Source: Romanomermis culicivorax
Taxonomy: Eukaryota > Nematoda > Enoplea > Mermithida > Mermithidae
Assembly: GCA_963922205.1 (NCBI GenBank)
Contig: CAWUHX010000077.1
Span: 1,054,001-1,118,000, forward strand
Direction: 5' to 3'
Length of the DNA: 64,000 nt
In this document: positions 46,118-50,947 of the stretch, one piece after another
Numbering within the stretch: the first letter of the stretch is position 1
Layout: each line of letters begins with the position of its first letter
The notes under the pieces: model-generated
Databases searched by the model: none
Told to the model about the DNA's origin: nothing
What the model saw: the letters and a program-made list of their open reading frames with translations, nothing else
Program-made: the position numbers and the translations under genes

Positions 46118-49100
46118 TCAGTGGCGGCGGCGATAACGAGTGTCGGACGCTGAACGGTGATTTCGTTGCGGATCGCGGCGGTCTCGTTCATGTTCTCTTT
46201 CTCGTTCTCTTTCTCTTTCTCGTTGGCGTTCGATGTGGTAGCCGTGGGGATCGTATGGATCTTCGTGGCCGTCAAAGCGGTAGTTACGAGAATAGCGGGA
46301 TCGACCGTAGTCAGAGGTATCCCGGCGGCGAGACGACGAGGTTGACATTTGAGGCGGTAGCGGCGATAGCGGGTTAACGCCTGGCGCTGGTAACTGAGTC
46401 GCGATTAACGACGGTTTGTCGGACGGCGTCCCTGTTGGCGGCAACGGTCGCGGTGGTAAAAGATTCCACCGGGCAGAGAAATCGTGCCGACGCAGCAGGG
46501 GCGCGGGGCGATCCGTTTCGCTATGGTATTGTAAATAAAGTTTTCGGACGTCGGCGAGTTCGGGCGGCTGTGGAAACGGTGCGTAGTCTGGGTAAGCCAT
46601 CCAGCTGTCGATGAGTCCGACAGCGGTGTTGTAGGCTTGGAGCAGGCACGAAGGATTGTCCAGGCCGCGAGCTTCGTAGAGGAAAAGCGTCAAATGGGCG
46701 GTGTGAACGGCGTCAACGACGCCGAGCTCCTCGGCCCAAAGACTGGCGACCCATTTCAATATTACCGTGGCAACGGCGTGCGAGATCGGTGGTTGCTGTT
46801 CTACGTACGAGGGGCGGTACTGGTCGCGGAAATACTGATACAGCGCCAACGAGGCGTTCGTGGCGCGTATGTGGACCGGCATAATGATGTGAATGCGGAG
46901 GCGCCCGAAGAAATTGATCAGCACCATCTCGTGCATCGTGCGCGGTGAGAAGAATTCGACGGCCGGGTCAATATGTGGCGGATAGCCCGGCGTGACAATC
47001 GTAACAGCATGCGGCTTATCGGTAGTACGGAATCGCGTATAGTTCGGCAAGTGCGTAGCCTCGCTAGGCAACCTGGGCTTAATTGCTGGTGCGGAACTTG
47101 GTGGCAACGGGACTCCAAGGACCGGTTTGGTGGTGATGATCATTTGCGGTTGACTGACCGCAGTAACCGGAGCCGACGTCGGGGCCGTAGGCGGCAGCGA
47201 CGTGGTGTGGGTTACCGTGGTCGATATGGCGGTTGTCGGAGCCGTGGGCGGCTGCGACGTTACCGTAGGCGTAGTCGAGGGTTTTTCGGGCTCCACGTCC
47301 ATAGGAGGCGGCGGAAGTGGAGCTTTAAATTCGTCTTTCGGCGGGTTCTTTAGAGCTTCCAGGCGGCGCTGGATTTCGGCGTCTCGGTGCAATGGGCTAA
47401 TATAGTCGGTTAATTTCGTGGGTGAGCGGCGGAAACCGTGGCGATAGTGTTCTTCGTAGAAACCCGTCGTGTGCACCTTACGGGTTTGTTCGCTCTGAGT
47501 ACGATGCGGCGGCGCGTCATCGCGGCGTTCGTGTTGGCGGCTATCCCTGCCGGTTGCTGGGGTTTGTTTCGCTTCTTTTCGGTGGCGGTCATCACGAGAA
47601 TGGGACTCATGGTGTGGACGGTGGCTGTCTGGTTTGCGATCAGGCGGCGGTAACGTTGCGGACGCTGCTGTCTTGGAAGAATCGCGTTTGGGTTTCGGCG
47701 TTGACGTAGCGTGCGAAGAGCGTTCGGCTTCTTCGCGGGTTCTTTGCTTATCGCGTTGTTCACGGCGTCGAGTGGTGCGCTCGCTGGGCGTTCGGCCGCG
47801 CTCAGCACGCGAGGTGCTGGGTGGCGGCGTGCGCCGTGTACTCGGTTCGTCCGATGTTTTTGTCTTGTGAGATTTGCGGTACGCCGATTCGTCTTGAAGC
47901 TGTTGTTTTCGTTTGATGGAATGTTCATACCGACCAGGCCTTCGGATAGGATTACCATAGCGATCTAGAGCCGGCACGGACGTGCTGGGTGCCTGTGGGG
48001 TTTGGACATCCACAGGCGCCGTCGGCGGCGGTAGAATCGCTGGTTGCGGCGGTTGCAGGATCGTTTGCGGTTGCGCTATGACCGGCGGCGGTAACGGGGC
48101 CGGTGGTTGCGTGACGGGTTGGGCCATTGCTGGAGCCATTTGAGCTACTTGCGGGGCCGGAGCGATCAACGTCGGTTGCGGCAACAAAATTTCTTGTATT
48201 CGTTCTTTCAACGCTTCGGGGAAATCCTTCCATTGATGCTCGGGGAACACCATACCAGGCGGCGGTGGCGGAAAATTATACGCGAGGAGTGCGGCAGTTA
48301 AGGCCGCGTGTTTGTCAGCTGAAATGAAGTGTTGTGAAAAACATACGGGAAGACTATACCTGGCTGCGGCAACAGTAGCAATGAGCGGAGGTCCCGGCAA
48401 AACGGCCGGCGTTGCCAAATATATTCGTGGATCCACGGCGGGTGCCGTGGTGATAGGCGCAGCGGCTGGTTCCATAGAGGCGACGTCCATAGACGTGGAT
48501 TGGTCCACCGTACTTTCTTCGGGTATGTCAGTCAACATTTGTTCTGATGTCATTGTTTCGGAGTCAATCGCAGTGGGTTGGACGGGTGTGGACTCGTCCA
48601 TCGGAGCCGGAGCGATGTTGGAAATTTCGTCTAGCGTCAATTTCAGAAAATCGTTGATTTGCGTGGCAGTTGCGGTAATATCGGAAGGCGCGGGTGCCAT
48701 AGGAAGGGCCGACACGTCCGTTGACGGCGGCAGCTTCGCTATGTTGAGATCGAAGATTGGCGTTTCAAGTAGATCATCGTCGGCGGGTTCAACTTCAACG
48801 TCGATAGGGCGGTCGAGAAGTTCCTCGGCGGTGAGCGTGTGCACCGAAGCCGTAGTCAGCATGGGGTACGCATACACCGGCGCGGGGAACGAAAGACGGT
48901 TTTGGTGGTCGATGAGCGCGATGAACGTTGAATAAAAATGGAAACGGCTATGTGGATTGGCCGTGTAATCGTTTTCATCGATTTCAACTTCTTCGACCGA
49001 CGTTTCCATGTGGAAGTTTTCGTCGAACACGATCGGGCGTAACGCGAAGCGGTTGCAGATGTACGTGCTTGGGTCGGCCGAAAAACTGGGCTCGCGTTCC

Positions 49101-50947
49101 GGAATGCGGTTCATCCAAGTCGTGAGAAGCGAATTGGGGTTGCCGTCGTTGCGGTACCACATGCATTCGTAGAACACGGCACGTGTATCTGGCGTCATTG
49201 ATTGCGCGTGGCGGAGGAGGACGTCATTGACCCAGGCGTATTCCGCGGCGGAACATGGTGAAGCTAGGAGCGCGGCTAACGGCATAAAAGTCGTTAGCTT
49301 CCGGAACCACTCTCCGTCAATCTGTAAAAAATTAAGGAAGGTTGAAGGGTGATAACGATAATGGGTACCGTTATAAGTGCGCTCGCGTAGGGGTTGGTCG
49401 GCAGCTACGCGTTCGGTCCAAAGATCTTCGACTTCGTGGGGAAGCGGCGGCAAGTTGGGATCGTTGTAAGGCATACGATCGCGGATGGCCAACTTGTATA
49501 TCGGTGAAAGCGGGAAGTTGAGCAACTCGATGATGCGGTGGATGAGATTGCTTTTCATGGCCGACGTGACGGCTGCTTGAAGGCGTTTGGGATCGTCGAA
49601 CACTGATTGCGGTTTTAGGGCCGGGTCTTCATCGTCGGAGACGTCTGGTGACTTGTTCCATTCGTCTTTCTGTTTCTTTTTCTTCTTTTTCGGCACTTTC
49701 GGAACGGGGAGAAGCTTCGGGTGAGTTGTCCTCGTCAAGGATTTGACATCTTTGAAGCCGTTGGGGACCGTTCCTAAACAGAAAGACCAACCGTGGTCGG
49801 ACGATGTGCAATCATACATAAAGAATTTATAAGCCGAAAGAACTTCATCTCGCATGATCGCGGGCAAGGCCACTTGCGACGTAGTCGGGTAGATCCGGTT
49901 GGCGTAGTCGGGAGGCAAGACATCCGACAGCGCGACGTTGTGAAAAGTGGCGATGACGTACTCGGCAAGATGGTCGATTTCGGCGGCGTCCAACGAGTCG
50001 TGGGGAAACAACGCGGGCGCGTTGTAGACCTCGGGGATGAAGCCGTAACGACCAAATGCCAAGAACAATAGCAGCGGATAATAGGCGTCGAGGGCCGCGT
50101 ATGCCAGGACGTCGGATTGTAGAAACGACGTTGTTGGATTGTTGAAAAAGCGTAGAGCGTGAGGAAATCGTAAGGTGAGCTTTGAGACGTCTAGCGCCCA
50201 CATTGCGGAGACTGTGGCTTTGAGCGTGCGTTTTTCCGGAAAGAAACCGATTCGGCGGGCCAACTCGTACAGGGACGGAGAAATGTCGATATTGCGAATG
50301 ACCCGGTACGCGTCGAAGTGGATTGCTTTCACGACGGGATCTTTGTTCTTCTTTTGCCGGTCGGTTCGAAATTGGGTGCCCAGAAGCGCGTAGATTCCCG
50401 CCCAGTCGTCGGCTCCATCGAAAGAGACTACGATGGTGTGGTCGCCGTCGACTAGGGCGAAAAGCGCGGTCCAGTCTTCTGGGGTGGCGGTGAACGTTTC
50501 GAAGACGAACATTGTGCCATTCGGAAACGCGAGTTGAACATAGCGGGGGTAACTAGACGCGTTGGGGTCGGCCGGCATTTGAACTGTGCATTGAAACTGT
50601 TTGAAATCGGCGGCCGAGATGGATTCGGTGTCAAAGCCGACCAGCGTGTAGCCACGGAAGTTTGGTGTGGGTTGGGCGGCCAAGGCCTGCCCCAAACTTC
50701 CGGGTGAAAGGAAAATCGGCGGCGGCAAGACGTTCGGGGGTCGCGCGTACATGGAAATGTACCACGACTCCAAATCGGCGACGCGAGTTAGGCGTTTGAC
50801 GTTGTTTTCTAAACAAGAGCGAATGCGATACTCATCAGTGACACGTGGGACACCACGTCGAATGAACGACATGGGGTTTAAAGGATGATGTAAACATGAA
50901 CGAAGAGGAAAGCGGTGTGGTGTTGTCAACTCGTTAGAAGTACACAT
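46118..50947 (-). CDS. Gypsy ORF2: DEDDy 3'-5' exonuclease domain with long Pro/RS-rich C-terminal region
   Basis: The frame is open from 51058; the first ATG is at 50947, another at 50872. About 1610 residues. The N-terminal part contains VGFDTES (Exo I, D-x-E; about 50630), [10 protein letters not shown] (Exo II Asp; about 50410) and [10 protein letters not shown] (Exo III, Y-x3-D; about 50090). This is the DEDDy arrangement of DnaQ/WRN/MUT-7-type 3'-5' exonucleases. After about residue 400 comes a [11 protein letters not shown] lysine patch, a region of no recognised fold, then Pro/Thr/Ala-rich sequence, a [20 protein letters not shown] block, and an Arg/Glu repeat near the end ([17 protein letters not shown]). 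There is no signal peptide, membrane anchor or Cys pattern of an envelope, although this is the env slot. Translation may need splicing or reinitiation. Exonuclease call is from motifs; activity and role are inference. Confidence 0.75.

Follow-up and report, generated by a model that had tools for sequence, protein, structure and literature searches.

Long terminal repeat (LTR) retrotransposons carrying a DEDDy-type exonuclease-like third open reading frame (ORF3) have been described in bdelloid rotifers as Juno and Vesta (Rodriguez, Kenefick, Arkhipova 2017; PMC5408684), and a DnaQ-like exonuclease has been described as well known among the accessory domains of these transposons (PMC6338049). 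In Juno and Vesta the order is gag, pol and then the DEDDy ORF in the position of the envelope gene (env), and several element families per genome carry it (PMC5408684). A similar arrangement was found on the minus strand of a 64,000-nucleotide stretch from the mermithid nematode Romanomermis culicivorax (assembly GCA_963922205.1, contig CAWUHX010000077.1, positions 1,054,001 to 1,118,000 of the forward strand; hereafter the window). The frame in question, ORF2, corresponds to ORF3 of the literature and belongs to a Ty3/Gypsy element. The best explanation of the whole, which we consider fairly probable, is a Ty3/Gypsy family whose third gene encodes a DEDDy-type exonuclease domain with a long tail and serves as an accessory replication factor. 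The opinion of a first-pass annotation of the window, that LTR elements normally lack such a gene, is contradicted by both papers.

The comparison with Juno and Vesta was made by description only, and the worm frame stands apart by its length of 1,646 codons, the presence of its domain in at least 135 copies and the strong selection on that domain. Furthermore, a dUTPase lies between protease and reverse transcriptase (RT) in Juno and Vesta (PMC5408684), whereas the window gag-pol gave no dUTPase match in a Pfam scan at E <= 1. The rotifer authors reported that the invariant residues of the DEDDy ORFs were intact, with DEDD changed to DEED, and proposed 3'-end processing of element RNA while noting inactive RNA-binding relatives; the bdelloid ORF3s that were resequenced, which were env-like and GDSL-like and not DEDDy, showed no departure from neutrality (PMC5408684). 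Cer1 of Caenorhabditis elegans, another Gypsy-group element of a nematode, likewise has a frame other than env between pol and the 3' LTR, but its product CERV has 517 amino acids and a G-protein-like domain, an exonuclease being unmentioned in that paper; CERV is made from spliced RNA (PMC10309623), as is predicted here for ORF2. Cellular DEDDy exonucleases (RNase D, NrnC, WRN, EXD2) have the motifs DxE, D and YxxxD in register with ORF2, from which they differ by an identity of 16-20% (hhalign), by the greater distance from Exo II to Exo III in ORF2, and by the latter's being element-borne and fused to a long tail. Retrotransposons with a cytosine methyltransferase have likewise gained a host-type enzyme, a different one and in other hosts (PMC5890265). 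No nematode LTR element with a DEDDy ORF3 was found among the open-licence papers listed in capped literature searches, which does not prove absence. As far as searched, the nematode host, the giant frame, the strong purifying selection and the related frames in other families, one of them apparently lacking RT, appear to be new.

The putative exonuclease assignment is carried by a chain of homology; the motifs by themselves are weak evidence. The chain runs through two groups of related elements in the R. culicivorax genome, families B and C, the window element's own family being family A. A search of this genome with PF01612 gave 116 matches, 95 of them above the curated cut-off, host genes included. 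ORF2 (residues 83-379 or 118-379) was 22-25% identical to the four family B frames (L138-L141), with E-values from 4.5e-12 to 1.6e-26 depending on direction and copy. PF01612 was in turn matched by the two family B frames scanned by Pfam (E 1.6e-3 and 2.2e-4) and by the one piece of family C scanned (E 4.8e-12, 46.4 bits). The similarity of family C to A or B was weaker (P 0.001-0.005; 0/195-200 shuffles).

When a joint profile of families A and B was compared by hhalign with 11 DEDDy sequences, the probability was 92.7% (P 4.3e-7, score 52.9), and all three motifs were aligned in register. The best of 200 column shuffles scored 21.3 and the reversed panel 17.3. The panel contained RNase D and three close relatives, 3cym, two NrnC-type chains, a deposited ancestor, human and mouse WRN, and EXD2; three members were drawn from the 80 loci of an RNase D scan of bacterial genomes, which gave close relatives only. 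Family A alone (75 rows) scored 24.7 against the 11 sequences, a score that none of 989 shuffles attained, and its profile scored 22.5 against 8 DEDDy sequences (reached in 1/393 shuffles). The single ORF2 sequence scored 21.8 against a small DEDDy panel (2/300 shuffles). Since ORF2 itself has no match above the PF01612 cut-off, its N-terminal part is best described as a divergent DEDDy-type domain, rather than as a member of PF01612. The proposal that a young Gypsy element has such a domain where env would lie was borne out through the homology chain, and the domain was common to the copies examined. The profile search put forward as a check gave no exonuclease match for ORF2 alone and a strong one for the joint profile.

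The order of the motifs was that of the known enzymes (Exo I DxE, Exo II D, Exo III YxxxD), as the first-pass annotation had stated. The spacing, which it had also called correct, was longer than in RNase D (75 and 106 for D143-D218-D324, against 57 and 70 for D28-D85-D155). By alignment the motif residues are D143, E145, D218, Y320 and D324; D217 was dropped as the Exo II aspartate, D218 being the better candidate in the alignment with families B and C and EXD2. The motifs were also present in the aligned family B and C sequences. Among 28 copies of the element's own family, D143 was kept in 28, E145 in 27, D218 in 26, Y320 in 27 (one stop) and D324 in 28, and all five residues were intact in 24. 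Shuffling of the ORF2 frame gave a middling pattern in 17/3000 shuffles and a tight one in 0/3000, but the latter had been composed after the sequence was seen. Another pattern, found in 101/2000 shuffles, was not matched by the real frame itself.

Strong purifying selection on the exonuclease-type domain, near the RT-integrase level, was observed when the copies were compared. Over 351 pairs (not independent) of 27 copies, the ratio of nonsynonymous to synonymous substitution rates (dN/dS, w) was 0.128 for the whole ORF2 frame and 0.051 for residues 105-420. The set comprised 27 of the 28 copies, L020, in which E145 is changed to K, having been removed by a motif filter. Reading the domain in the other two frames gave w of 2.7 and 4.7, and the variable sites of the domain were distributed as 21, 10 and 121 over the codon positions (121/152 at third positions). 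For comparison, w was 0.046 for RT-integrase (19 sequences) and 0.015 for RT alone, and residues 1351-1520 of ORF2 were also constrained (0.069). In the sister families the domain gave 0.118 (B, 4 sequences) and, roughly, 0.069 (C, 6 sequences, dS 0.92). The selection that had been read from nearly identical LTRs and an intact frame is seen in dN/dS, the check that had been suggested; those two features by themselves do not show it.

ORF2 was not a one-off capture, a possibility rejected by its full-length copies and by the copies of its domain. The 28 full-length copies, 20 of them without a stop, were those scored among 6,897 candidates. The domain was found in at least 135 copies at 97-100% identity, 130 of them without a stop in the domain; this is a lower bound, 135 having been scored of 3,278 candidates. 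The upstream sequence was taken for 20 of the 27 other full-length copies, and pol preceded ORF2 in all 20, with the whole RT-integrase query in 18. All 76 relatives found with a 366-residue ORF2 query in a large protein collection were from R. culicivorax. The 1,646-residue frame gave no match there among candidates of similar length (in one search, the best 8000 scored).

The features of the element, which has the LTRs, the polypurine tract and the pol order protease-RT-RNase H-integrase of Ty3/Gypsy, are the following, all on the minus strand:

58732..59324, minus: 5' LTR, 593 bp, TGTTGTAG...ATAACA, from the LTR-LTR alignment
58713..58731, minus: putative primer-binding site, tggtgaccg..., immediately following the 5' LTR, placed by position only, no tRNA assigned
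51867..58715, minus: gag-pol, a single open frame of 2,282 codons with protease, RT, RNase H and integrase
51059..51866, minus: spacer between pol and ORF2, with candidate sites for a predicted splicing and a small ATG frame from 51361
46118..51058, minus: ORF2, 1,646 codons, after the pol stop (51867) and before the 3' LTR
49799..50746, minus: DEDDy 3'-5' exonuclease-type domain, ORF2 residues 105-420, by the homology chain; dN/dS as given above
50621..50635, minus: Exo I FDTES, residues 142-146 (D143, E145)
50402..50425, minus: Exo II SFDGADDW, residues 212-219, with D218 aligned with the Exo II aspartate of the sister families and EXD2
50087..50101, minus: Exo III YAALD, residues 320-324 (Y320, D324)
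46118..49798, minus: remaining ORF2, with stretches that by eye are rich in Pro/Thr and in Lys/Arg/Ser, a constrained segment and an Arg/Glu-rich tail
45700..45712, minus: polypurine tract AAGGGGGGAGGGG before the 3' LTR
45103..45699, minus: 3' LTR, 597 bp, from the LTR-LTR alignment

The gag-pol frame gave Pfam matches to RVT_1 (1.3e-37), RT_RNaseH (2.5e-36), Integrase_H2C2 (8.3e-19), rve (1.4e-11) and gag-asp_proteas (8.4e-7). The two LTRs differ by one substitution and one 4-bp indel. No target-site duplication was visible by eye at their outer ends (45103, 59324), and this copy may therefore have originated by recombination or lost a flank. In the rest of ORF2 (46118..49798) no family above the cut-off was found in the parts scanned. 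Likewise, no Pfam envelope family was matched in ORF2 or in its scanned parts, in agreement with the earlier statement that envelope features are absent; this refers to Pfam families alone, with no transmembrane prediction.

Position 50947, from which the frame had been annotated, is an internal ATG (residue 38), and the open frame begins at 51058. Segment by segment, w was 0.90 for residues 1-62, 0.98 for residues 63-83 and 0.08 for residues 84-104. Because selection in frame is visible only from about residue 84, translation more likely starts near Met63 (50872) or at a nearby splice acceptor. The spacer between pol and ORF2 was well conserved across 8 aligned copies, and within it lies a small conserved ATG frame (51221-51361, minus) that includes a PPPY stretch and terminates at a donor-like GT; this frame is possibly a leader exon. 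Codon usage was uninformative for ORF2, the correlation with gag-pol being 0.911 in frame and 0.911 in another frame.

In family B, the frame L138 lies directly downstream of a pol (L142) that is 45-50% identical to that of the window element, and the association of ORF3 with pol is therefore probably older than the split of the two lineages; ORF3 would evolve faster than pol. In family C (L130-L137), an open DEDDy frame of about 609 codons was found in several copies and followed an integrase match in 6/8 loci. For one copy (L143), the 2.5 kb of upstream sequence contained an RNase H-region match and, judged by eye, a zinc knuckle, with no RT match in this interval; an RT may lie further upstream. 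A homology between the C-terminal parts of ORF2 and the family C frame, suspected by eye, was not significant (128/2000 shuffles). Directly beyond the 3' LTR (43174-45045, minus), a 508-codon frame and then a 114-codon frame were observed; the former is similar to the later portion of ORF3 in family B (tblastn 1.6e-5 to 9.2e-5), as if the window element were seated in the remnant of a sister element.

Elsewhere in the window, a neighboring element (59284-64000, plus strand) runs off its end. This element has a glycoprotein-like frame (60202-61386) matching Pfam Monjiviricetes_fusion (9.2e-14) and BDV_G (1.1e-3), located upstream of weak and clear aspartyl-protease-like frames and RT, an order unusual for an LTR element. 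A repeat at 40526-41404, whose spacings are multiples of four, yields long frames rich in Asn, Gln and Thr. The GC content of the window was 0.30-0.41 up to 42 kb and 0.46-0.57 beyond.

Under the favored reading, ORF2 would encode a large protein, made from a spliced subgenomic RNA, in which an N-terminal RNase D/WRN/EXD2-like DEDDy-type domain is joined to a long, partly basic tail. The enzyme would be active as a 3'-5' exonuclease and would trim RNA of the element itself, or else its single-stranded cDNA, at the 3' end inside a ribonucleoprotein, where the basic tail may help RNA binding. The product would thus be an accessory replication factor and not an envelope. Several results weigh against this reading. 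ORF2 itself matched no exonuclease in Pfam, NCBIfam or PDB sequences; its best Pfam line was DUF4350 (E 0.0075, below the cut-off), and among 45 aligned family A members DUF4350 was found in 8 and PF01612 in 3 (best E 0.18). ORF2 or its parts gave no exonuclease match in PHROGs and phage genomes either. Family B alone reached 18.7 and 21.5 bits, under the PF01612 cut-off of 23.6, and 7.1% against the panel (score 25.8; best of 200 shuffles 25.0); the hhalign probability was 2-4% for family A alone (4% for the 75 rows), only the joint profile being strong. Two AlphaFold runs gave low-confidence models (pLDDT 36.7 and 37.6), and a Foldseek search with the second returned nothing at E <= 0.001. 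The dN/dS values come from the best-scoring copies, a choice that favors low dN. A motif residue was lost in 4/28 copies, and in public protein fragments the motif residues were often changed (D218 kept in 34/44, D324 in 38/47 and E145 in 20/25 rows of one alignment, query included). Conservation of the motif residues in these fragments did not exceed that of other D/E at CpG-like sites, N or K being found at 136/908 D/E preceded by C against 35/455 remaining D/E. The changes are compatible with decay at CpG sites, DNA methylation having been reported for this nematode (PMC8821070); since the motif D/E change about as often as others, the fragments give no support for conserved catalysis.

Part of this evidence has been weighed for other explanations. 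That the three motifs are coincidental and that ORF2 encodes, in the env position, a protein with an unrelated fold would agree with the missing direct family match, the low-confidence structure models and the finding of the bare pattern (D.E, D, Y...D at the ORF2 spacings) in 1490/3000 shuffles of the frame; the chain through sister families with PF01612 matches and the in-register profile match already disfavor this account, which we hold to be very improbable. A possible, though rather doubtful, alternative is that the DEDDy fold is kept but serves, as in Maelstrom and EXD1, as a scaffold that binds RNA and has hardly any catalytic activity or none, for instance in the export of genomic RNA as for Cer1 CERV. 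The Maelstrom/EXD1 precedent is discussed in PMC5408684, the third protein of Cer1 has a G-protein-like domain without the GTP-hydrolysis residues and is required for RNA export (PMC10309623), the ORF2 tail is long and partly basic, and D218 is lost in 2/28 and E145 in 1/28 young copies. Such a scaffold is harder to reconcile with the retention of all five residues in 24 of those copies and of the motifs in families B and C, and with a domain dN/dS near that of RT-integrase.

A nuclease that counters host silencing, degrading or trimming siRNAs or other element-targeting RNAs, is quite unlikely in our judgment. The high copy number of the element speaks for it, and silencing is plausible because an RRF-3-type RNA-dependent RNA polymerase occurs in clade I nematodes (PMC4323106) and R. 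culicivorax is reported to have DNA methylation (PMC8821070). However, this assignment of substrate found no support here, and no MUT-7-specific similarity was seen, no dedicated test having been made; in R. culicivorax neither piRNAs nor small RNAs with a 5' triphosphate were detected (PMC4323106), which leaves little footing for a MUT-7-like role. The link to MUT-7 and small RNAs drawn in the first-pass annotation was hence unsupported, the match being to DEDDy exonucleases generally. It is unlikely, if somewhat less so, that the exonuclease gene is a shared module of several R. culicivorax retroelement families, including the apparently RT-less family C, and that its product could work in trans at the 3' ends of RNA, for RNA processing or against silencing, with non-autonomous elements carrying the gene too; the family C frame was open and constrained in the sequences examined.

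The rotifer work of 2017 left open whether enzymatic ORF3s serve their elements (PMC5408684). The many young copies and the purifying selection observed here show selection acting on a frame of this kind in an abundant nematode element, and the association of an exonuclease with LTR elements is extended to another phylum. Additionally, the near-identical copies, the long-read assembly and the sister families make a role of the nuclease testable in R. culicivorax.

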